Source: Actinoplanes sp. M2I2 (GTDB lineage: Bacteria; Actinomycetota; Actinomycetes; Mycobacteriales; Micromonosporaceae). Taken from it: 64,000 nt of DNA. Numbering within the stretch: position 1 is the stretch's first letter; the number at the start of each line of letters is the position of its first letter. The translations under genes and the position numbers were made by a program. The notes beneath the pieces are model-generated. The model did not search any database. It was not told the origin of the DNA and saw nothing but the letters and a program-made list of their open reading frames with translations. Where the stretch lies: contig NZ_JALPVJ010000009.1 of the NCBI RefSeq assembly GCF_023544445.1, forward strand, positions 248,001 through 312,000. The letters are read 5' to 3'. Shown here piece after piece: positions 44,112-57,594 of this stretch.

Positions 44112-46010
44112 ATGACACAGACGACGTCACTCGCCGATTTCCTCGGTACGACCGAGGTCGGCCGGCTCACCGCGGATCAGCGGCGGCTGATCGTCGAGCA
44201 GGCGCTGCTGCTGCTCGAGCAGAACTACGCGCTGCTGCCGTTCAAAGTGGCCCGTTACGGCATCAACCCGCTGCAGCGCCTGCGGTTGCTCCTGCAGCGC
44301 CTCGGCCGCGACGGCGACGCCGAGCTCGAGTGGGCGACGCACCGGGAACTGCTAGAGGTCTTCAACTCGCTGCGCGACCTGCACACCCGGTACACGCTGC
44401 CGCAGCCGTTCAACGGCGTCGCCGTGTTCCTGCCGTTCCTGCTCAAGGAGTTCACCGAGGACGGCCGCCGGCGCTACCTGGTCAGCCGCCGCCAGGCCGG
44501 CCAGCCCGAGCTGGACGACCGGGGGTTCCGCTTCGGCGTCGAGGTGACGCACTGGAACGGCGTGCCCGTCGCGCGGGCCGTCGAGCGCTTCGCCGAGCGG
44601 CTGCCGGGCGCCAACGCCGAAGCCCGCCGGGCGCGGGCCGTGCAGATGTTCACCGTCCGCTCGCTGGCGTTCGCGGCGCCGCCCGACGAGGAGTGGATCA
44701 CCCTCGGCTACCGGGGCGAGGACGGGCAGCCCGGCGAGATCCGGCTGACGTGGAGCGCGACGCCGATCGAGACCGCGACCGCGTCTTCCGCATCGCCGTC
44801 GGCCGACACGCCGCTGGGGCTCGATGTCGAAGGGGCCCAGCTGGCCCACCTGCGCGCCCAGTTGTTCGCCCCCGAAGCGCTGGCCGGTCGGCCGGCCGCC
44901 GCCGGGCCCGAGAGTGTTCCGGTCACCCCCGAGCTGACCACCGTCTTCGAGGCGCGGCGCGTCACCGTGGGCGGCCGGGCCGTCGGACATCTGCGCATCC
45001 GCACGTTCCTGCCGACCGCGAGCGGCATCGTCGGCTTCGTCCGGGAGTTCGCCCGCCTGCTGGCCGTGCTCCCGCCGGACGGCCTCGTGCTCGACGTGCG
45101 GGGCAACGGCGGTGGCGCGGTCGTCGCCTCCGAGCTGTGCCTGCAGGCGCTCACCGCCCGTCCGGTCGAGCCCGAGCCGGCCCAGTTCGCGGTGACGTCG
45201 CTCAACCTGCGCCTGTGCCGCAGCAACGACAACCTGCGGCCGTGGCTGCGGTCGATGGAGCAGTCGCTGGAGTCCGGTGCGCCGTACTCGGCCGGCATCC
45301 CGTTCACCGAGCGGGAATGGCTCGAGGCGGTCCCGCAGGCCTACTTCGGCCCGGTCGTGCTGCTCACCGACGCCCGCTGCTACTCGGCCACCGACATCTT
45401 CGCCGCCGGCTTCCAGGACAACGGGATCGGCCCGGTGCTGGGCACCGACGGCAACACCGGCGCCGGCGGCGGCAATGTCTGGCAGCTGGGCGACCTCATC
45501 GGCGCGCTGGCCGGCCGCTCCGACGGGCCGTTCAAGCCGCTGCCCCTGGGCGCCGGTCTGTCGCTGGTCATCCGGCGCGTGCTCCGCGTGGGCGCCAACG
45601 CCGGCACGCCCCTGGAGGACTACGGCGTCGTGCCCGACGCACGCCACCACACCACCCGCCGCGACATCCTGCACGACGACGCCGACCTGCTGACCGCGGC
45701 GGCCGGCCTGCTGGAGAAGTCGCCGCCGCGCCGCTTCGACGTCACGCTCTCCGAGGACGAGGGCTCGATCACCGCGGTCTTCGAGGTGCTGGGCGTCGAC
45801 CGGGCCGACTTCGAGGTGGACGGGCGGCCGCGCTACAGCGCCGACCTGGACGGAGCCGGCCCGGACGGAGCCGGCCCGGTCGAGGTGGCCAACTGCGGGG
45901 GCGCGGAGCTGGTTCGCGTACGGGGTTTCGACGCCGGCACGTGCGTCGCGCTCCGCACCTTCGTCCGCCGGGGTGACGCGCTGCGGCCGCTCGAGACTTT
46001 GGCCGACTGA
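44112..46010 (+). CDS. S41-family (tail-specific/tricorn-type) serine peptidase
   Basis: A 632-residue protein. The core has the S41 pattern: VGHLRIRTFLPTASG, then LVLDVRGNGGGAVVASELCL, and the nucleophile segment VVLLTDARCYSATDIFAAGF, where Ser after CY is the predicted catalytic residue. No signal peptide is visible, so it may be cytoplasmic, which is unusual for C-terminal processing proteases. A PDZ-like segment may lie around FGVEVTHWNGVPVARAVERF. A 15-bp direct duplication near the 3' end encodes DGAGP twice. It starts 51 bases after the uronate operon and could be read through from it. Confidence 0.8.
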   Translation: MTQTTSLADFLGTTEVGRLTADQRRLIVEQALLLLEQNYALLPFKVARYGINPLQRLRLLLQRLGRDGDAELEWATHRELLEVFNSLRDLHTRYTLPQPFNGVAVFLPFLLKEFTEDGRRRYLVSRRQAGQPELDDRGFRFGVEVTHWNGVPVARAVERFAERLPGANAEARRARAVQMFTVRSLAFAAPPDEEWITLGYRGEDGQPGEIRLTWSATPIETATASSASPSADTPLGLDVEGAQLAHLRAQLFAPEALAGRPAAAGPESVPVTPELTTVFEARRVTVGGRAVGHLRIRTFLPTASGIVGFVREFARLLAVLPPDGLVLDVRGNGGGAVVASELCLQALTARPVEPEPAQFAVTSLNLRLCRSNDNLRPWLRSMEQSLESGAPYSAGIPFTEREWLEAVPQAYFGPVVLLTDARCYSATDIFAAGFQDNGIGPVLGTDGNTGAGGGNVWQLGDLIGALAGRSDGPFKPLPLGAGLSLVIRRVLRVGANAGTPLEDYGVVPDARHHTTRRDILHDDADLLTAAAGLLEKSPPRRFDVTLSEDEGSITAVFEVLGVDRADFEVDGRPRYSADLDGAGPDGAGPVEVANCGGAELVRVRGFDAGTCVALRTFVRRGDALRPLETLAD

Positions 46011-46739: not shown

Positions 46740-47654
46740 GTGCGGCGGCGTGGATGGGTGATCGTGGTGCTGGCGGTGCTCGTGGCGGCCGTGCTGGCCG
46801 GGCACAGCCTGATCCCCCGTGTCGGTGGCGACCCGGGAAGCATGGTGCAGACGTTCCTGCCGTGGTTGGGGTTGAGCGTTCCGGTGCTCGCGGTGCTCGG
46901 CTGGTGGCGACGGCCCGCGGTGGCGTTGCCGGCCGTGCTGCTGCCGCTGACCGCCTGGCTCGTCGTGTTCGGGCCGGCGCTGTGGCCCGACGACCGGGGG
47001 CACGACCTGATCGCCGTGCAGCACAACGCGAGCGACGAGAACCCGGACCCGGCCGGGACGGTGCGCGAGCTGCTGCGGGTGTCACCCGATCTGGTGGCGC
47101 TCGGTGAGGTGCTGCCCGAGAGCGTTCCGGCGTACGAGGCGGCGTTCGGCGCCGCCTACCCGTACCACGCCGTGCACGGCACCGTGGCCCTCTGGTCGCG
47201 GCATCCCTTCGCCTCGGTCGGGCCGCTCGACATCCGGCCGCGCGCCTTCGGGGCCGACTGGAACCGGGGGTTGCGCGCGGTGGTCCGCACCCCGCGAGGC
47301 GAGATCGCCGTCTTCGTCGCGCACCTGCCGTCCGTACGGATGGGGGTCAAGGGTTTCGCCACCGGACCGCGGAACGAGGCCGCGGACCGGCTCGGCGCGG
47401 CGCTGGCGGCCGAGCCGCACGACCGGGTGCTGCTGCTGGGCGACCTGAACGGCACGGTGGACGACCGCGGCCTGCGACCGGTCACCGAGCTCGTGCACAC
47501 CGACGCGGCGTTCGCCTTCAGCTGGCCCGCCCGGGCTCCCGTGGCCCGCATCGACCACATCCTCGGCCGCGGGCTGACCGTGACGTCGTTGTGGTCGCTC
47601 CCCCGCACCGGCAGCGACCACCTCCCCATCGCGGCGCGGATCCGGGCGTCTTAG
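46740..47654 (+). CDS. Membrane-anchored endonuclease/exonuclease/phosphatase-family protein
   Basis: A 304-residue protein with about three N-terminal hydrophobic helices (WVIVVLAVLVAAVLAGHSLI and two more up to residue 80), then an EEP domain. ALGEVLPES carries the catalytic Glu. The other motifs are RVLLLGDLNGTVDDRGL, RIDHILGRG and TGSDHLPIAARI, with the final SDH motif. The domain acts on nucleic acid, sphingomyelin or phosphoinositide phosphodiester bonds; the topology places it outside the membrane. GTG start at 46740. It ends four bases inside the convergent DUF6807 gene. Confidence 0.88.
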   Translation: MRRRGWVIVVLAVLVAAVLAGHSLIPRVGGDPGSMVQTFLPWLGLSVPVLAVLGWWRRPAVALPAVLLPLTAWLVVFGPALWPDDRGHDLIAVQHNASDENPDPAGTVRELLRVSPDLVALGEVLPESVPAYEAAFGAAYPYHAVHGTVALWSRHPFASVGPLDIRPRAFGADWNRGLRAVVRTPRGEIAVFVAHLPSVRMGVKGFATGPRNEAADRLGAALAAEPHDRVLLLGDLNGTVDDRGLRPVTELVHTDAAFAFSWPARAPVARIDHILGRGLTVTSLWSLPRTGSDHLPIAARIRAS

Positions 47655-48388
47655 CGGAGGTCGCGGACGAGCACCCGCAGATGCCGGGTCAGGGTGTCGC
47701 CGGCCGGGATCAGGAGCGGCTTCTCGTACGCGAGAGCGGCGCAGACGCCGACGTAGTCGCCGGTGCGGACGAACCAGCGGTCGTCGGCGGCCAGGCCCCG
47801 GAACGTCAGGGCGTAGTTGTCGCCGACGGTCAGCGTCAGGGCCGGGGCGGCGCTGCCGTGCTCCGCGTCCGCCACCGCCGTGTCCGCGCTCGGGCAGCGC
47901 CAGAAGAAGCCGCCGTAGCCCGCCCCGCCGGTGCGGCCGTTGGTCGCCGGGCTGCCCAGGGTGACCGGCTGGTCGTCGGGCGCGGTGAGGGCGTACCGGA
48001 AGGAGAGCTCCCAGCCGCCGGGCGCGGGCGAGGCCGCGATCCGGCGGCGTTCGGTCAGAACCGTGCGCTCGTCGCCGTCGCACCAGCGCAGGAGCTCGGT
48101 GTCGCCGTCCCAGCGGTCGTGCCGGACGGTGCCGTGGTCCTCGAGCCACGTGTAGCCCCGGTCGCGGACGAAGGTGCGGCCGCCCCAGAAGTTCCGGCCG
48201 TTCACGTCGGCCAGCGTCACCGACGCGCCCAGGTGCCACGGGTGGTCGAAGCACAACTCGTCGGTGACGACCGTGCCGCCGAGGGTGCGGACGGGATGCA
48301 GGTAGGGGCGCGGGGCCAGGCGGATGTCGAGGGGCGGGTCGACGACGTAGGTGGCCACCTCGACATCGCCGACCTGCAGCGACTTCAC
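47651..48388 (-). CDS. DUF6807 (PmoA-family) protein
   Basis: A 245-residue beta-rich protein with the DUF6807 pattern: RPYLHPVRTLGGTVVT, CFDHPWHLGASVTLADVNG, NFWGGRTFV and GGFFWRCP. The paired histidines of the first two motifs are conserved and could bind a metal or sugar. The annotation 'methane oxygenase PmoA' in databases is misleading; the family is usually found in carbohydrate clusters with Gfo/Idh/MocA enzymes, and its function is not established. The GTG start overlaps the isomerase stop (GTGA); last gene of the four-gene operon. Confidence 0.85.
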   Translation of the reverse strand: MKSLQVGDVEVATYVVDPPLDIRLAPRPYLHPVRTLGGTVVTDELCFDHPWHLGASVTLADVNGRNFWGGRTFVRDRGYTWLEDHGTVRHDRWDGDTELLRWCDGDERTVLTERRRIAASPAPGGWELSFRYALTAPDDQPVTLGSPATNGRTGGAGYGGFFWRCPSADTAVADAEHGSAAPALTLTVGDNYALTFRGLAADDRWFVRTGDYVGVCAALAYEKPLLIPAGDTLTRHLRVLVRDLR

Positions 48389-49188
48389 GCGACGGCCGCC
48401 TGGTAGCCGGCGATCGCCTCGGCCAGGACGGCGGCGCCCGGCCGGGCCCACACGTCCTCGTGGAAGACCTCGACCTCGACGTGGCCGTCGTAGCCGGTCT
48501 CGCGCACCGCCCGGGCGAACCGGCGCAGGTCGACCGACCCGGTGCCGGGCAGCCCGCGGCCCAGCAGGACCCCCGCCGGCAGCGGCGTGATCCAGTCGGC
48601 CAGCTGGAAGGCGGCCAGGCGGCCCTGCCGGCCGGCCTCGGCGATGCCGTCCCACACCTTGTCGTCCCACCACAGGTGATAGGTGTCGATGACGACGCCG
48701 ACCGCCTCGGCGGGGTACGGCGCGGCCAGTTGCAGCGCCTGGTCGAGGGTCGCCACCACGCACCGGTCGGAGCAGAACATCGGGTGCAGCGGCTCGATGG
48801 CCAGACGGACGCCGGCGGCCAGCGCGTCGGGGACCAGCGCGCCGATGGCGTCGCCGACGTGGCGGCGGGCGCCGTCCAGGTCGCGGCTGGTGCCGGGCAG
48901 GCCGCCGCTGACGAGCACGAGCGTGTCGGTGCCGAGGGTGGCCGCCTGCTCGATGGCGCGCCGGTTCTCGTCGTACCAGTGGCTCTCGTGGAAGAAGCCA
49001 CCCCGGCACAGCGACGAGACGGTCAGGCCGGCGTCGCGGACGAGCGCGGCCGCCTTGTCGGTCCCGTACTCCGACACCTCTTCACGCCACAGCCCGACCG
49101 CGCCCACACCGGCCTCGACGCACCCGGCCACCAGGTCGTCGAGCGGCCACCGCTTGGTGGTGGCCTGGTTCAGCGAGAAGCCCCTCAT
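48385..49188 (-). CDS. Sugar phosphate isomerase/epimerase (xylose-isomerase-like TIM barrel)
   Basis: A 267-residue AP-endonuclease-2-type TIM barrel. Metal-ligand segments are VRLAIEPLHPMFCSD (Glu), VGVVIDTYHLWWD (Asp, His) and VEVEVFHEDVW (Glu). Members isomerise ketoses, epimerise inosose, or cleave 3-keto-glycosides by elimination; the neighbouring Gfo/Idh/MocA and DUF6807 genes favour the last possibility. It overlaps both neighbours by four bases, so the operon is translated as a unit. Confidence 0.85.
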   Translation of the reverse strand: MRGFSLNQATTKRWPLDDLVAGCVEAGVGAVGLWREEVSEYGTDKAAALVRDAGLTVSSLCRGGFFHESHWYDENRRAIEQAATLGTDTLVLVSGGLPGTSRDLDGARRHVGDAIGALVPDALAAGVRLAIEPLHPMFCSDRCVVATLDQALQLAAPYPAEAVGVVIDTYHLWWDDKVWDGIAEAGRQGRLAAFQLADWITPLPAGVLLGRGLPGTGSVDLRRFARAVRETGYDGHVEVEVFHEDVWARPGAAVLAEAIAGYQAAVA

Positions 49189-50288
49189 GCGTCCAGCCCC
49201 ACCGTCGTCAGCCAGGCGCCGGCCCGGTGGGCCGCGAGCGAGGCGTCCGGTAGCAGCCCGGCTTCGTCGGCCAGTCTCATGAGGGTCAGCAGATGCCGCG
49301 GCGACCGTCCCGACTGGGCCCCGTTGACCATCGTGAAGTGGTCCTGGTGCCCGGCCAGCCAGTTGAGGAAGACGATGCCGGTCTTGTAGTGGTAGGTCGG
49401 CGCGGCGAACAGGTGCCGGGCGAGCGGCAGCGTGGGACCCAGGATCCGCTCGTACGCCGGGACGTCGCCCTCGTCGAGTGCCCGGAGCGCAGCCGCGGCG
49501 GGCGGCGCGATGACCGCCAGCACGCCCAGCAGCGCCTCGGAATGGCCGTGGTCGTCCCCGAGGATCAGCGACGGGTAGTTGAAGTCGTCCCCGGTGTACA
49601 TGCGAACGCCCGCCGGCAACCGCCGCCGCATCTCGATCTCGTACTCCGCGTCGAGCAGCGACAGCTTGATGCCCTCGACACGGTCGCGGTGCTCGTCGAT
49701 GATCTCGAGCACCGTCTCGCGCCGGCCCCAGTAGCCGGCCAGCGCCGGGTCGAACGCCTCGCCCAGCCAGTGCAGCAGCACCGGCTTGTCGGACTGGGCG
49801 AGCAGCTCGCCGTACACCCGCTTGTAGTCATCGGCGTCGCGGGCGGCCGCGGCCAGGTGCCGGCTGCACATCAGCACCGGAGTCGCGCCGGCGTCCCGTA
49901 CGTCGTGCAGCTGCTCCAGATAGGCCTTGGTGATCTCGTCGATCGTGGCCGGGCCGGGCGGCAGCTGGTCGGTGCCCACGCCGGCGACGACGGCCCCGCC
50001 GGCCGACCGGGCCTCGGCCGCGCTGCGCCGGATCAGCTCGCGGGTGACCGGGTAGTCGAGCCCGGCGCCGCGCTGGGCGGTGTCCATCGCCTCGGCCACC
50101 CCGAAGCCGTACGACCAGAGGTGGTGACGGAAGCGCAGCGTCGCGTCCCAGTCGAGCGCGGCCGGCGCGCCCGGGATGTTCTCGGCGTGCGGGTCGGCCG
50201 TGACCGGTGCGGCGGCGTACGCGATGCGGCTCGTGAAGGCGCCCTGAGCCCGGTACTGAGCGCCGTGACCGCTGAACTCGACGGTCAT
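49185..50288 (-). CDS. DUF993 / dihydrodipicolinate-synthase-like aldolase
   Basis: A 367-residue DUF993 protein, distantly related to the DapA/NAL class I aldolase barrel. Visible segments are LWSYGFGVAEAMDTAQRG, AVVAGVGTDQLPP, VLMCSRHLAAAARD, KPVLLHWLGEAFDP and RVEGIKLSLLDAEYEIEMRR. In the last, the lysine in GIKLSLLD is a good Schiff-base candidate. It would cleave or form a C-C bond in a keto-acid or keto-sugar. Overlaps the genes on both sides by four bases. The substrate is not known for this family. Confidence 0.8.
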   Translation of the reverse strand: MTVEFSGHGAQYRAQGAFTSRIAYAAAPVTADPHAENIPGAPAALDWDATLRFRHHLWSYGFGVAEAMDTAQRGAGLDYPVTRELIRRSAAEARSAGGAVVAGVGTDQLPPGPATIDEITKAYLEQLHDVRDAGATPVLMCSRHLAAAARDADDYKRVYGELLAQSDKPVLLHWLGEAFDPALAGYWGRRETVLEIIDEHRDRVEGIKLSLLDAEYEIEMRRRLPAGVRMYTGDDFNYPSLILGDDHGHSEALLGVLAVIAPPAAAALRALDEGDVPAYERILGPTLPLARHLFAAPTYHYKTGIVFLNWLAGHQDHFTMVNGAQSGRSPRHLLTLMRLADEAGLLPDASLAAHRAGAWLTTVGLDA

Positions 50289-51436
50289 CGGCTCAGCTCC
50301 GGGATCTCCAGGCGGCGGCCCTCGCGGGACGACCGGAGGCCCAGCTCGGCCACCTGCACGCCGCGGGCGCCGGCCCAGAGGTCGCCGGTGTACGGGCCGT
50401 CCTCGGCGACGTACCGCAGGAACTGCTCCCACTGGGCGCGGAAGCCGTTGGCGAAGACCTCGTTGTCGGGCACCTCCTGCCACTGCTCGCGGAAGCGCTG
50501 CGCGGTCGGCACGTCCGGGTCCCAGACCGGCTTGGGGGTGGCCCCGCGGGGCTGGATGCGGCAGTGGTGCAGGCCCGCGACCGCGCTGCCGTGGGTGCCG
50601 TCGACCTGGAACTCGACCAGCTCGTCGCGGTTGACCCGGACGGCCCAGGACGAGTTGATCTGGGCGATGACCCCGCCGTCGAGCTCGAACAGCCCGTAGA
50701 CGGCGTCGTCGGCGGTGGCCGCGTAGGGCTCGCCGGCCTCGTCCCAGCGGCGGTCGATGTGCGTGACCGAGCGCGCGGTGACCGCGTTGACCGGACCGAA
50801 GATCTGCTCGAGGACGTAGTGCCAGTGCGGGAACATGTCGAGCGTGATGCCGCCGCCGTCGGCCGCCCGGTAGTTCCACGACGGACGCTGGGCGCCCTGC
50901 CAGTCGCCCTCGAAGACCCAGTAACCGAACTCCCCCCGTACGGAGAGGACGCGCCCGAAGAAGCCGCTGCGCACCAGCCGGTGCAGCTTCTGCAGACCCG
51001 GCAGGTAGAGCTTGTCCTGCACCACGCCGTGCTTGATGCCGGCCGCGTCGGCCTCGCGGGCCAGGTCGACCGCCTCGGTGAGGCTCTCGGCGACCGGCTT
51101 CTCGGTGTAGATGTGCTTGCCCGCCTCGATCGCCGCGCGCAGCGCCTTGACCCGGGCCGAGGTGACCTGGGCGTCGAAGTAGATCCGCACGTCGGGGCGG
51201 GCCAGCGCGCCGGGCAGGTCGGTCGTCCAGTCGGTCAGCCCGTGCTGCTCGGCCAGCGCGCGCAGCTTGGCCTCGCTCCGGCCGACCAGCACCGGCTCGG
51301 GCCACAGGACGGTGCCGTCGCGCAGCGGCAGACCGCCGTCGGCCCGGATGGCCAAGATCGAGCGGATCAGGTGTTGTCGCAGGCCCATGCGGCCGGTGAC
51401 GCCGTTGAGGACGATGCCGAGGGGGGTGCGGTCCAT
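50285..51436 (-). CDS. Gfo/Idh/MocA-family oxidoreductase (first gene of the LacI-controlled operon)
   Basis: A 383-residue dehydrogenase with an unusual N-terminal nucleotide motif (GIVLNGVTGRMGLRQHL, closer to dihydrodipicolinate-reductase style). The catalytic motif is YTEKPVAES near residue 115. GGGITLDMFPHWHYVLEQ contains the conserved active-site histidines. ATG 51436 has GGAGG in front. It leads the coupled operon that ends with DUF6807. The promoter contains the operator GGTAAGCGCTTTCC and diverges from the lacI gene. Confidence 0.88.
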   Translation of the reverse strand: MDRTPLGIVLNGVTGRMGLRQHLIRSILAIRADGGLPLRDGTVLWPEPVLVGRSEAKLRALAEQHGLTDWTTDLPGALARPDVRIYFDAQVTSARVKALRAAIEAGKHIYTEKPVAESLTEAVDLAREADAAGIKHGVVQDKLYLPGLQKLHRLVRSGFFGRVLSVRGEFGYWVFEGDWQGAQRPSWNYRAADGGGITLDMFPHWHYVLEQIFGPVNAVTARSVTHIDRRWDEAGEPYAATADDAVYGLFELDGGVIAQINSSWAVRVNRDELVEFQVDGTHGSAVAGLHHCRIQPRGATPKPVWDPDVPTAQRFREQWQEVPDNEVFANGFRAQWEQFLRYVAEDGPYTGDLWAGARGVQVAELGLRSSREGRRLEIPELSR

Positions 51437-51471: not shown

Positions 51472-51485
51472 GGTAAGCGCTTTCC
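51472..51485. promoter_or_regulatory. LacI-type operator GGTAAGCGCTTTCC between lacI and the four-gene operon
   Basis: A 14-bp near-palindrome (12 of 14 positions symmetric) with the LacI-family core AAGCGCTT. It lies 36 bases upstream of the Gfo/Idh/MocA start and about 85 bases upstream of the divergent lacI start. The same site, 13 of 14 bases identical on the opposite strand, lies upstream of the pectate lyase gene. Confidence 0.82.
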
Positions 51486-51569
51486 TGATACCGTACGGGC
51501 GTGCCGCCGGGCGGGCAAGACCGGCGGCGGTATCCTCCGACCGACATCGGGACTCTCGTGGGGGTGGGC

Positions 51570-52568
51570 GTGGCGACCTTGGCCGACGTGGCGCGCCGGG
51601 CCGGGGTGTCCACCGCAACCGCATCGCGGATCATCAATGGCAGCTCGAAGCCGGTCACCGAGGAGCTGCGGACGCGCGTGCTGGCCGCCGTGGCCGAGCT
51701 GCGTTACGTGCCCAACGCGCACGCCCAGATGCTGGCCCGCTCCAACCGCAACGCGGTCGGCGTGCTGGTGCACGACGTCTCCGACCCGTACTTCGCGGAG
51801 ATCACCCGCGGCCTGCAGCGCGTCGCCACGGCCCACGGCCGCCTGGTCATCATCTGCAACACCTTCCGCGAGCCCGCGCGGGAGCTGGAGTACATCGACC
51901 TGCTGCACGCCCACCAGGTCGCGGCCATCGTGGTGGCCGGCTCGGGATACCTCTCCTCCGACGCCGAGACCGAGCTGCACGACCGCCTGACCGCCTTCGA
52001 GACGACCGGCGGGCGCATCGCGGTGATCGGCCGCCACTCGCACACGTCCGACGCCGTGCTGCCGGCCAACGAGGAGGGCGGCTTCCTGGCCGGGCAGCAC
52101 CTGTTCGAGCTGGGCCACACGGCGGTCGGCGTGATCGCCGGCCCGGCCGCGCTGACCACCACCGCCGACCGCCTGGCCGGTCTGCGACGGGCCGCCGCGG
52201 CCCACGACCGGACGCTGCGCGTGGTCCACGCCGACTTCACCCGCGACGGCGGCGAGGCGGCGGCCGCGCGGCTGCTGGCCGACGAGCCCGGCCTGACCGC
52301 GTTGGCCGCGCTGAACGACTCGATGGCCGTCGGCGCGCTGGCCGCCCTGCGCGGCGCGGGCCGCGCCCTGAGCGTCGTCGGCTTCGACGACATGCCCGTG
52401 GCCCGCGACGTCACGCCCGCGCTGACCTCCGTACGACTGCCCTTGACCGAACTGGGCGAGCGGGCCATGGAGCTGGCCCTCGACCCGCCGCCGCCGGGGT
52501 CACCGCCCCGGATCGAGCACGTCGGCGCCGAGCTGATCCGCCGGGACAGCACCTGGGCCGCCCCGTAG
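51570..52568 (+). CDS. LacI-family regulator of the pectate-lyase/four-gene regulon
   Basis: A 332-residue regulator. The HTH is TLADVARRAGVSTATASRII, followed by the hinge region LRYVPNAHAQMLARS. The effector domain follows (NAVGVLVHDVSDPYFAEITR, AVIGRHSHTSDAV, LAALNDSMAVGALAAL, LSVVGFDDMPVARDVTPALT). GTG 51570 best fits the start just before ATLADV; GTG 51564 and 51558 are alternatives. It diverges from the four-gene operon across the operator at 51472 and probably also controls the pectate lyase. The effector is likely a sugar breakdown product. Confidence 0.92.
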   Translation: MATLADVARRAGVSTATASRIINGSSKPVTEELRTRVLAAVAELRYVPNAHAQMLARSNRNAVGVLVHDVSDPYFAEITRGLQRVATAHGRLVIICNTFREPARELEYIDLLHAHQVAAIVVAGSGYLSSDAETELHDRLTAFETTGGRIAVIGRHSHTSDAVLPANEEGGFLAGQHLFELGHTAVGVIAGPAALTTTADRLAGLRRAAAAHDRTLRVVHADFTRDGGEAAAARLLADEPGLTALAALNDSMAVGALAALRGAGRALSVVGFDDMPVARDVTPALTSVRLPLTELGERAMELALDPPPPGSPPRIEHVGAELIRRDSTWAAP

Positions 52569-56273: not shown

Positions 56274-56287
56274 GGCAAGCGCTTACC
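56274..56287. promoter_or_regulatory. LacI-type operator GGCAAGCGCTTACC upstream of the pectate lyase gene
   Basis: Reverse-complemented it reads GGTAAGCGCTTGCC, identical at 13 of 14 positions to the operator at 51472. It lies 33 bases before the pectate-lyase start codon, in a 554-bp intergenic region otherwise without a gene apart from the leader ORF on the other strand. Confidence 0.82.
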
Positions 56288-56319: not shown

Positions 56320-57594
56320 ATGCCCATTGCCACGTCACTTGTCGCCGCTGTTCTGCTGGCTTTCGCTCCCCCACCCGCGGCGCCTGCCGTCCCTCCGGCG
56401 GCGCTCGCCCTGGCCCGGCAGGGCATCTCGCCCGGCGACGGCTGGGCGTCGGCCGGCGCGGGCACGACCGGTGGCTCGGCGGCCGGCGACGCCGACGTGT
56501 TCGTCGCCCGCGACCGGGACGAGCTCGTGGCCGCCGTCGCCGGCAACACCCCGAAGATCGTCTTCGTGCGGGGCCGGATCGACCTGCGTGAGGGCCGGAG
56601 CTGCCAGGACTTCGCCGACCCGGAATACTCGCTCGACGCCTTCCTGGCCGCGTACGAGGGCTGGACCACCCGTCCCACCGGCCCGGTCGAGGACGCCCGG
56701 GTGCGTTCGGCCCGCGCCCAGTCCGAGCAGATCCGGGTCGTCGTGGGCAGCAACACGACGATCATCGGTCTCGACGGCGGCCGGCTCGAGCACGGCAGCC
56801 TGGTGCTGACCAACGTGAGCAACGTGATCGTCCGGAACCTCGAGGTGACCGACGCCGCGGACTGCTTCCCGGCCTGGGACCCGACCGACGGCTCGGCCGG
56901 CAACTGGAACTCGCTCTACGACCTGGTGTCGCTCAGCGGCGCGACCAACGTGTGGCTGGACCACAACACCTTCAGCGACGGCAACAACCACGACGCCGAC
57001 CAGCCGCTGTACTTCGGCCGGCCCTACCAGGTGCACGACGGCGCGACCGACTTCATCCGCGGCTCCGACCTGATCACGGTGTCCTGGAACGACTACTACG
57101 ACCACGACAAGACGATGCTGATCGGCTCGACGGACACGCCGGGCGTCGACGTCGGCAAGCTGCGCGTCACCGTGCACCACAACCGTTTCGGCAACGTCGT
57201 GCAGCGCGCGCCGCGGGTGCGGTTCGGGCAGGTCGACGTCTACAACAACCTCTATGTGGCCACGGACGAGGAGTACGGCTACTCGCTCGGCGTGGGCGTC
57301 GAGTCGAGCATCTACGCCGAGAACAACTACTTCCGGTTGAGCGCCGACGTGCCCGCGTCGGACGTGATCGCGTACTGGAAGGGAACCCGGATCACCGAGC
57401 GCGGCTCGCTCGTGCAGGTCTCGGGGAACGCGCCTCGCCCGGTCGACCTGGTGGCGGCCTACAACGCGGCCCACGACCCCGACCTCGCCCCGGACGCCGG
57501 CTGGACCCCGGTCCTGCGTACGGGGGTCGATCCGACCGCTTCCGTGCCGGCGCTCGTCAGTGCCGGCGCCGGCATCCGCCGCGTGCTGCGCTGA
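56320..57594 (+). CDS. Secreted pectate lyase, polysaccharide lyase family 1-like
   Basis: A 424-residue exported beta-helix enzyme that cleaves polygalacturonate by beta-elimination. The N terminus MPIATSLVAAVLLAFA is a signal peptide. Pectate-lyase features are the parallel-helix repeats (SNVIVRNLEVTDAADCFPAW) and the Ca-binding asparagine/aspartate-rich WLDHNTFSDGNNHDADQP. Further motifs are HDKTMLIGSTDTPGVD and the catalytic-Arg segment VVQRAPRVRFGQVDVYNNLY. ATG 56320 has GAGAGG in front. The LacI-type operator in the promoter links it to the four-gene operon; unsaturated galacturonides would feed UxaC-type metabolism. Confidence 0.93.
   Translation: MPIATSLVAAVLLAFAPPPAAPAVPPAALALARQGISPGDGWASAGAGTTGGSAAGDADVFVARDRDELVAAVAGNTPKIVFVRGRIDLREGRSCQDFADPEYSLDAFLAAYEGWTTRPTGPVEDARVRSARAQSEQIRVVVGSNTTIIGLDGGRLEHGSLVLTNVSNVIVRNLEVTDAADCFPAWDPTDGSAGNWNSLYDLVSLSGATNVWLDHNTFSDGNNHDADQPLYFGRPYQVHDGATDFIRGSDLITVSWNDYYDHDKTMLIGSTDTPGVDVGKLRVTVHHNRFGNVVQRAPRVRFGQVDVYNNLYVATDEEYGYSLGVGVESSIYAENNYFRLSADVPASDVIAYWKGTRITERGSLVQVSGNAPRPVDLVAAYNAAHDPDLAPDAGWTPVLRTGVDPTASVPALVSAGAGIRRVLR

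Follow-up and report, generated by a model that had tools for sequence, protein, structure and literature searches.

A Gfo–DUF993–TIM-barrel triad shares a putative operator with pectate-lyase genes in Actinoplanes sp. M2I2

Bacteria degrade 4-deoxy-5-keto-uronate through KduI, KduD, KdgK and KdgA, while the oxidative uronate/aldarate pathway consists of uronate dehydrogenase, galactarate dehydratase, KdgD and a semialdehyde dehydrogenase. A further system, DgpA-DgpB/DgpC, cleaves C-glycosides; in it DgpC is an AP_endonuc_2 protein and DUF6379 the partner encoded with the barrel. Here we describe a four-gene cassette of Actinoplanes sp. M2I2 (Micromonosporaceae), located in a stretch of 64,000 nucleotides that we call the window (contig NZ_JALPVJ010000009.1, positions 248,001 to 312,000 of the forward strand). 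The genes lie on the minus strand at 47651-51436 and encode, in order, a Gfo/Idh/MocA oxidoreductase (Gfo), a DUF993 protein, a xylose-isomerase-like triosephosphate isomerase (TIM) barrel and a DUF6807 protein. Each neighbouring pair overlaps by 4 nucleotides, with ATGA, ATGA and GTGA at the three junctions, and none of the genes contains an internal stop; the four-base overlaps had been described in an earlier note on this DNA. In a Pfam search all four proteins exceed the curated cut-offs, and among named relatives Paractinoplanes atraurantiacus is closest, with 85-90% protein identity in the first two genes.

We lean towards the view that this cassette provides the intracellular enzymes of a pectin regulon under LacI control, in which the triad of Gfo, DUF993 and TIM barrel would split a galacturonate-derived keto acid into three-carbon (C3) units. 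A pattern scan of the complete 9.58-Mb genome found the strict palindrome GGNAAGCGCTTNCC four times, compared to about 1.05 matches expected from base composition and none for the reversed pattern. One site precedes the cassette and the other three precede the three pectate-lyase genes found, so that the list of strict sites contains nothing else. These genes comprise two of family PF00544 and one of family PF03211, the only two families used in the pectinase search of this genome. In addition to the pectate-lyase gene in the window, a PF00544 gene on contig 7 has its site 111 nucleotides upstream of the ATG and a PF03211 gene on contig 15 has its site 62 nucleotides upstream (both distances measured by hand). 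Within the window, two sites are found where shuffled sequences predict 0.01. On contig 7, the operator of the pectate-lyase gene has a spore photoproduct lyase gene (L251:7375-8541) on its upstream side.

Palindromes of this kind are also found in relatives. Upstream sequence was sufficient at 135 triad loci, of which 105 have a similar ANCGNT palindrome within 300 nucleotides upstream of Gfo, compared to 15.4 expected from shuffles. P. atraurantiacus (L041) has one site for the cassette and another for the pectate lyase next to it, 22 nucleotides before the ATG of the lyase gene, and a pectinesterase gene stands between cassette and lyase. In the window's genome, cassette and pectate-lyase genes carry the same putative DNA switch, which the divergently encoded LacI protein may bind. 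This sharing suggests that the triad burns sugar acids derived from pectin, by a route as yet undescribed.

To define the conserved unit, we used two sets of loci. The family set holds 60 loci fetched from the 64 other DUF993-bearing genomes of the window's family (G396, G413, G457 and G488 are omitted), and the second set (genome_contigs) holds the best 80 of at least 590 DUF993 relatives; three loci are common to both. DUF993 is present in 65 of the 121 sampled genomes of the family and in 29 of the 396 sampled from the phylum, and a search of viral contigs for DUF993 relatives found none. The order Gfo-DUF993-TIM is retained in 59/60 family loci and 75/80 genome_contigs loci. On the same strand, DUF993 has Gfo as its neighbour in 59/60 and the TIM barrel in 60/60 of the family loci; in the genome_contigs loci it adjoins Gfo in 75/80 and the TIM barrel in 79/80. 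Pairwise distance matrices of the three proteins (136 sequences each, window included) correlate with r of 0.79-0.83, a value attained in none of 500 permutations. The conserved unit is the Gfo-DUF993-TIM triad, a co-inherited enzyme unit.

DUF6807 is an optional fourth gene. It is found on the same strand within 1.5 kb downstream at 6/60 family loci and 3/80 genome_contigs loci, and anywhere within the locus at 7/60 and 7/80, which rules it out as a core part of the cassette; all four genes form one unit just in this genome and in some relatives. The earlier note had treated the four genes as one unit and a possible complete pathway, to be refuted if they did not co-occur elsewhere. Three of the four genes do co-occur and diverge in step, the fourth co-occurs in part, and given its occasional presence a complete pathway of four genes is not supported. 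In Paeniglutamicibacter (L079:12085-14109) DUF6807 is fused to a second Gfo/Idh/MocA protein directly after the triad's TIM barrel. At L069 the TIM barrel is followed, about 0.4 kb further on, by an aldose-1-epimerase-like gene (218.5 bits, under the cut-off of 251).

Next to the triad, relatives also encode enzymes of pectin and sugar-acid metabolism. Pectate lyases, scored with three queries within the fetched stretches, occur at 8/60 family loci and 4/80 genome_contigs loci (one locus, L171 in one set and L048 in the other, counts in both), compared to 0/40 control regions, which come from 20 of these genomes. The controls also contained no pectinesterase, KdgD or galactarate-dehydratase-like gene. 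The difference between 8/60 and 0/40 has a Fisher p value of 0.02, though five of the eight loci belong to one genus and are not independent. At these five (genus g254; L211, L215, L216, L219 and L221), tandem genes for two-domain PL3-PL1 pectate lyases adjoin a four-gene cassette. Another locus of this genus (L218) has a DUF993 identical to that of Asanoa iriomotensis (L044).

Where neighbours elsewhere could be recognised, they often belong to sugar-acid metabolism, with KdgD, galactarate and glucarate dehydratases, UxaC, tripartite tricarboxylate carriers and glycerate kinase among them. A KdgD gene is present at L069, L079, L084 and L093, and a galactarate-dehydratase-like enolase at L069, L084 and L093. 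At L084 and L093 the triad runs on into these two genes, and L093 also has a divergent pectate lyase. L069 combines KdgD, the enolase (274 bits, under the cut-off of 500), a pectate lyase, an aldehyde dehydrogenase, an ABC ATPase and a LacI protein with DUF993 and the TIM barrel, Gfo being 8 kb away. L079 encodes KdgD with a glucarate-dehydratase-like protein (785.6 bits, slightly under the cut-off of 828.7), L097 a galactarate/altronate dehydratase of the GarD/UxaA type, and L107 a tripartite tricarboxylate carrier. UxaC is found at L189 together with a pectate lyase and a stretch resembling 2-keto-3-deoxy-6-phosphogluconate (KDPG) aldolase; UxaC-like genes also occur at L184, at the edge of L042 and weakly at L097, and in 0/40 controls. 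Finally, six family loci and eight others encode an NMT1-type ABC binding protein, which would suit an acidic solute.

Gfo has the expected Rossmann and C-terminal domains (31.4, 58.7 and 83.6 bits against Pfam cut-offs of 24, 22.9 and 27) and is orthologous to 3oqb (489 bits), a structure deposited without function. The presumed catalytic residues K113 (in EKP), D200 and H204 are found in 136/136 orthologues, as are G52 and R53. A Gly-Arg pair after the second strand is a rule for NADP over NAD; because G52-R53 occupies this place, the sequence suggests that Gfo uses NADP rather than NAD.

The TIM barrel (PF01261, 122.6 bits against a cut-off of 31.1) is orthologous to the solved proteins 7vpf (242 bits) and 3ju2/3qc0, that is SMc04130 (211 bits), likewise deposited without function. 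Its presumed metal ligands, at the positions known from relatives, are E132, D168, Q195 and E238. Among 139 orthologues E132, D168 and E238 are invariant; the third position, His in the Glu-Asp-His-Glu metal site of these barrels, is occupied by Gln in 130 orthologues and by His in the other 9. A Gln could bind metal as well; as it is the rule at this position in the set, decay of one protein was rejected as its explanation.

Both proteins are weakly similar to cyclitol enzymes. Gfo reaches 51 bits with the inositol dehydrogenase model (cut-off 355), and the nearest solved relative of the barrel outside its own group is IolI (profile E 6.6e-19). This likeness would fit a cyclitol or ordinary monosaccharide pathway made of IolG-, IolI/IolE- and aldolase-like steps, with the operators at pectate-lyase genes simply reflecting a LacI core motif held in common. 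We consider such a pathway very improbable, as all four strict operator sites precede the cassette or a pectate-lyase gene and as uronate and aldarate enzymes stand beside the triad in some relatives. The next solved relative of the barrel outside its group is 5hmq (E 1.4e-12), deposited as a 4-hydroxyphenylpyruvate dioxygenase, whose matched half is presumably a QuiC-type dehydroshikimate dehydratase. Among the 60 of 61 structural-database matches listed for the barrel, no chain bears the name DgpC. The top curated match is hydroxypyruvate isomerase (32.6 bits against a cut-off of 353).

The earlier note had linked the cassette to pectin, a connection that the shared operator at three pectate-lyase genes strengthens, and had proposed that Gfo oxidises a pectin-derived glycoside at C3, that the TIM barrel cleaves it by beta-elimination and that DUF993 splits the resulting keto-sugar; DUF6807 would be auxiliary. 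We give little credence to this glycoside route. It has a precedent in the DgpA/B/C system, which is reported to oxidise and cleave glycosides using a Gfo-family oxidoreductase; the wider TIM superfamily includes a 3-keto-glucoside 4-epimerase (6wn6, E 5.2e-8), and the pectin link is real. In the Gfo search, however, DgpA (1.7e-10) ranks behind other dehydrogenases such as the inositol/L-glucose enzyme (1.5e-16), and by sequence the Gfo subfamily is an outlier as far from this glycoside 3-dehydrogenase as from inositol and sugar dehydrogenases, or farther. The closeness of the barrel to IolI is also against it, and DUF6379 is not among the Pfam results for the four cassette proteins. The neighbours are sugar-acid genes, and the barrel is dispensable on plasmid pAO1 (below), which is hard to square with an essential glycoside lyase.

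DUF993 (Pfam 533 bits) is an orthologue of 4dnh, that is SMc04132 (392 bits), again deposited without function. Its predicted model (predicted local distance difference test, pLDDT, of 92) matches this orthologue with a Z-score of 54.3 and the dihydrodipicolinate synthase (DHDPS) 3flu with a Z-score of 32.8 (2.1 Å over 286 residues). On this model, DUF993 is assigned the DHDPS fold. In a profile comparison with 10 DHDPS-family proteins (probability 47.6, E 1.9e-4), K208 aligns to Lys161 and H173 to Tyr133. K208, in the GIKLSLLD stretch that had already been proposed to hold a Schiff-base lysine, is invariant in 139/139 triad orthologues together with H173 and the DTAQ run (69-72), and lysine chemistry is plausible from the sequence, in support of the earlier reading of DUF993 as aldolase-like.

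In the rest of the active site, DUF993 differs from its superfamily. The 10 aligned DHDPS-family proteins have invariant G43, G46, E47 and Y133. The GTTGE carboxylate motif and Tyr133 were sought in 36 DUF993 proteins from both types of locus described here and are absent from all of them; MDTAQR and H173 stand instead, as part of an MDTAQR/HW/K/DD signature present in 36/36. The position equivalent to GTTGE was placed via secondary structure, as the profile alignment does not reach it. Pfam reports DUF993 alone for this protein and no PF00701 match at E up to 0.001. With other residues in place of both the pyruvate-carboxylate loop and the tyrosine, DUF993 would have a different donor or binding mode.

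We also examined 15 plasmid regions, 11 of them annotated and 4 unannotated, in which tblastn found a Gfo orthologue in 8/15 and a TIM barrel in 14/15. Glycerate kinase is encoded at 7/11 annotated loci. The triad is accompanied by a tripartite carboxylate carrier on Palleronia and Nitratireductor plasmids, by an enolase on Chelatococcus and Nitratireductor plasmids, and by glycerate kinase and an MFS carrier on an Erwinia plasmid. On pAO1, the nicotine plasmid of Paenarthrobacter nicotinovorans (L121), genes for a GMC oxidoreductase, an aldehyde dehydrogenase, Gfo, DUF993 and glycerate kinase are found, and a TIM match was sought in the 31-kb region without result.

A second locus type (L122, L126, L129, L130, L131 and L132) has DUF993 and the TIM barrel together with a coenzyme A (CoA)-transferase and no Gfo orthologue; most members also encode acyl-CoA dehydrogenase, enoyl-CoA hydratase and glycerate kinase. 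Among the six annotated plasmid loci without a Gfo orthologue, the counts are 6/6 for CoA-transferase, 5/6 each for acyl-CoA dehydrogenase, enoyl-CoA hydratase and glycerate kinase, and 3/6 for a sugar ABC carrier. At five Gfo-less loci a gene annotated as 3-ketoacyl-ACP reductase, of the short-chain dehydrogenase/reductase (SDR) family to which KduD belongs, adjoins the DUF993/TIM pair; on a Rhodococcus plasmid, also Gfo-less, the SDR gene is in a divergent gene run with an unrelated Gfo gene nearby. This second locus type suggests a different pathway built on DUF993, and the Gfo-less loci (7/15 plasmid regions) may have a different substrate.

The plasmid loci bear on a rather unlikely alternative centred on hydroxypyruvate. 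Gfo would oxidise C2 of a hexarate or aldonate, DUF993 would split the 2-keto acid so formed into hydroxypyruvate and an aldehyde of three (or two) carbons, and the TIM barrel would interconvert hydroxypyruvate and tartronate semialdehyde toward glycerate. The frequent glycerate kinase, the retention of Gfo, DUF993 and glycerate kinase on pAO1 without a TIM match, and the aldarate enzymes and carboxylate carriers adjoining the triad all agree with this scheme, and the altered carboxylate motif of DUF993 fits a non-pyruvate donor. Hydroxypyruvate isomerase is indeed the top curated match of the barrel, but far below the cut-off and at the superfamily level. By itself, the scheme leaves the unsaturated end of pectate-lyase products unhandled.

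For the pectin regulon that we favour, we infer the catalytic steps as follows. Pectate lyases would release (unsaturated) oligogalacturonides, giving a galacturonate-derived keto sugar acid. The TIM barrel would perform an isomerisation of the aldose-ketose type on this acid, Gfo would provide an NADP-type redox step, and DUF993 would carry out a retro-aldol cleavage via a Schiff base on K208, with the C3 units going to pyruvate and/or glycerate. Glycerate kinase, as a recurrent plasmid companion of the triad, gives context to C3-acid end products. DUF6807 would be an accessory for anomer handling. A more concrete version, which we put forward tentatively, has the TIM barrel in a KduI-type step on 4-deoxy-5-keto-uronate, Gfo in a KduD-type reduction, and DUF993 cleaving unphosphorylated 2-keto-3-deoxygluconate (KDG) to pyruvate and glyceraldehyde. 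The model for KduI (NF002091), the one isomerase family searched, finds nothing in the window's genome, and an E. coli KduI query found no match in the 140 triad loci or the 40 controls.

DUF6807 (PF14100, 182 bits against a cut-off of 27) has no significant match in a sequence search of the PDB. The best of five models has a pLDDT of 81 (57-67 for the others), and its top structural matches include galactose mutarotases and related supersandwiches with Z-scores of about 15, among them GalM 4bze at 15.3 (3.1 Å over 201 residues). It is therefore predicted, with caution, to be mutarotase-like.

Several observations weigh against the pectin regulon. Most triad loci, 52/60 and 76/80, have no pectate lyase in the fetched stretches as scored by the three queries, and in many relatives the triad is preceded by a similar palindrome with no pectate lyase nearby. 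The genome-wide regulon scan covers this one genome, AAGCGCTT is a common LacI-family core, and of the five matches added by a relaxed pattern (three inside open frames) two sit in intergenic DNA. With GTTGE and Tyr133 missing, a pyruvate-type aldolase is uncertain, and at L046, L050, L186 and L189 KDPG-aldolase-like genes are present, which would make DUF993 redundant there as a KDG aldolase. KduI is above cut-off in 26/121 family genomes, 13/65 with DUF993 and 13/56 others (p 0.82). This gives no replacement signal, and replacement of KduI as a genome-level rule is rejected. Finally, pAO1 and the CoA-enzyme loci indicate different or broader substrates.

The term DUF993 occurs in none of 5.39 million papers searched, and DUF6807 in one, where the matching passage merely counts domains of unknown function. 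Matching passages of two papers name S. meliloti genes with SMc locus tags: SMc04132, SMc04133 and SMc04135 are tabulated among proteins changed in a PhaR study (PMC12542648), and SMc04134 appears solely as a transcription factor or as a regulated gene (PMC11387232). Titles and listings returned for a LacI pectate regulon, a Paenibacillus barrel, pAO1 (xylose) and the cassette's annotation words contained nothing on the triad.

It is possible, if far from assured, that DUF993 represents a new class of Schiff-base aldolase, with His for Tyr and DTAQ for the carboxylate loop, and that the triad is an undescribed, kinase-free route for pectin uronates, non-homologous to KduI-KduD-KdgK-KdgA and present in about half of the sampled family genomes and in scattered other phyla. 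If so, soil actinomycetes would burn pectin via a route invisible to current annotation. Pectate-lyase producers among the 52/65 DUF993 genomes without KduI over cut-off could then be rated incapable of using the products. The solved protein groups 3oqb, 4dnh and 3ju2/3qc0/7vpf, which have generic or placeholder names, gain a shared testable role.

The features of the locus are collected in Table 1. Beyond DUF6807, an endonuclease/exonuclease/phosphatase-family gene at 46740-47654 is convergent with the cassette and shares its final 4 bases with the end of the DUF6807 gene. A peptidase S41-type protein is encoded at 44112-46010 on the other strand.

Table 1. Cassette, regulator, putative operators and pectate-lyase gene, in window coordinates
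Feature	Coordinates	Strand	Remarks
Gfo/Idh/MocA oxidoreductase, first gene	50285..51436	-	383 aa, ATG; orthologue of 3oqb
DUF993 protein	49185..50288	-	367 aa, ATG; DHDPS fold (modelled); orthologue of 4dnh (SMc04132)
Xylose-isomerase-like TIM barrel (AP_endonuc_2)	48385..49188	-	267 aa, ATG; orthologue of 3ju2/3qc0 (SMc04130) and 7vpf
DUF6807, lineage-limited fourth gene	47651..48388	-	245 aa, GTG start; predicted galactose-mutarotase-like supersandwich
Divergent LacI-family regulator gene	51501..52568	+	possible start at a GTG/TTG codon within 51558-51606
Putative LacI-type operator GGTAAGCGCTTTCC	51472..51485	.	near-palindrome, 35 nucleotides ahead of the Gfo ATG
Second putative operator copy GGCAAGCGCTTACC	56274..56287	.	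32 nucleotides ahead of the pectate-lyase ATG
Pectate lyase (PF00544, 424 aa)	56320..57594	+	signal-like N-terminus (by eye); operator motif in common with the cassette

Among known systems, DUF6807 resembles GalM (galactose mutarotase) in its predicted fold, with no significant sequence match. Like DgpA-DgpB/DgpC, the cassette pairs a Gfo oxidoreductase with an AP_endonuc_2 barrel, but both belong to other subfamilies, the context is one of sugar acids and the DUF6379 partner is missing. DUF993 shares with the DHDPS/N-acetylneuraminate lyase superfamily (PF00701) the whole fold and the position of the Schiff-base lysine, and differs in having DTAQ for GTTGE and His173 for Tyr133, both invariant in the examined set. 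KdgD or dehydratase genes of the oxidative uronate/aldarate pathway share the triad loci L069, L079, L084 and L093 and the Palleronia plasmid, while that pathway as known has no place for DUF993 or the TIM barrel. As in KduI-KduD-KdgK-KdgA, an isomerase, an oxidoreductase and an aldolase would serve the products of pectate lyases; unlike that pathway, the cassette draws its proteins from other families and contains no kinase.

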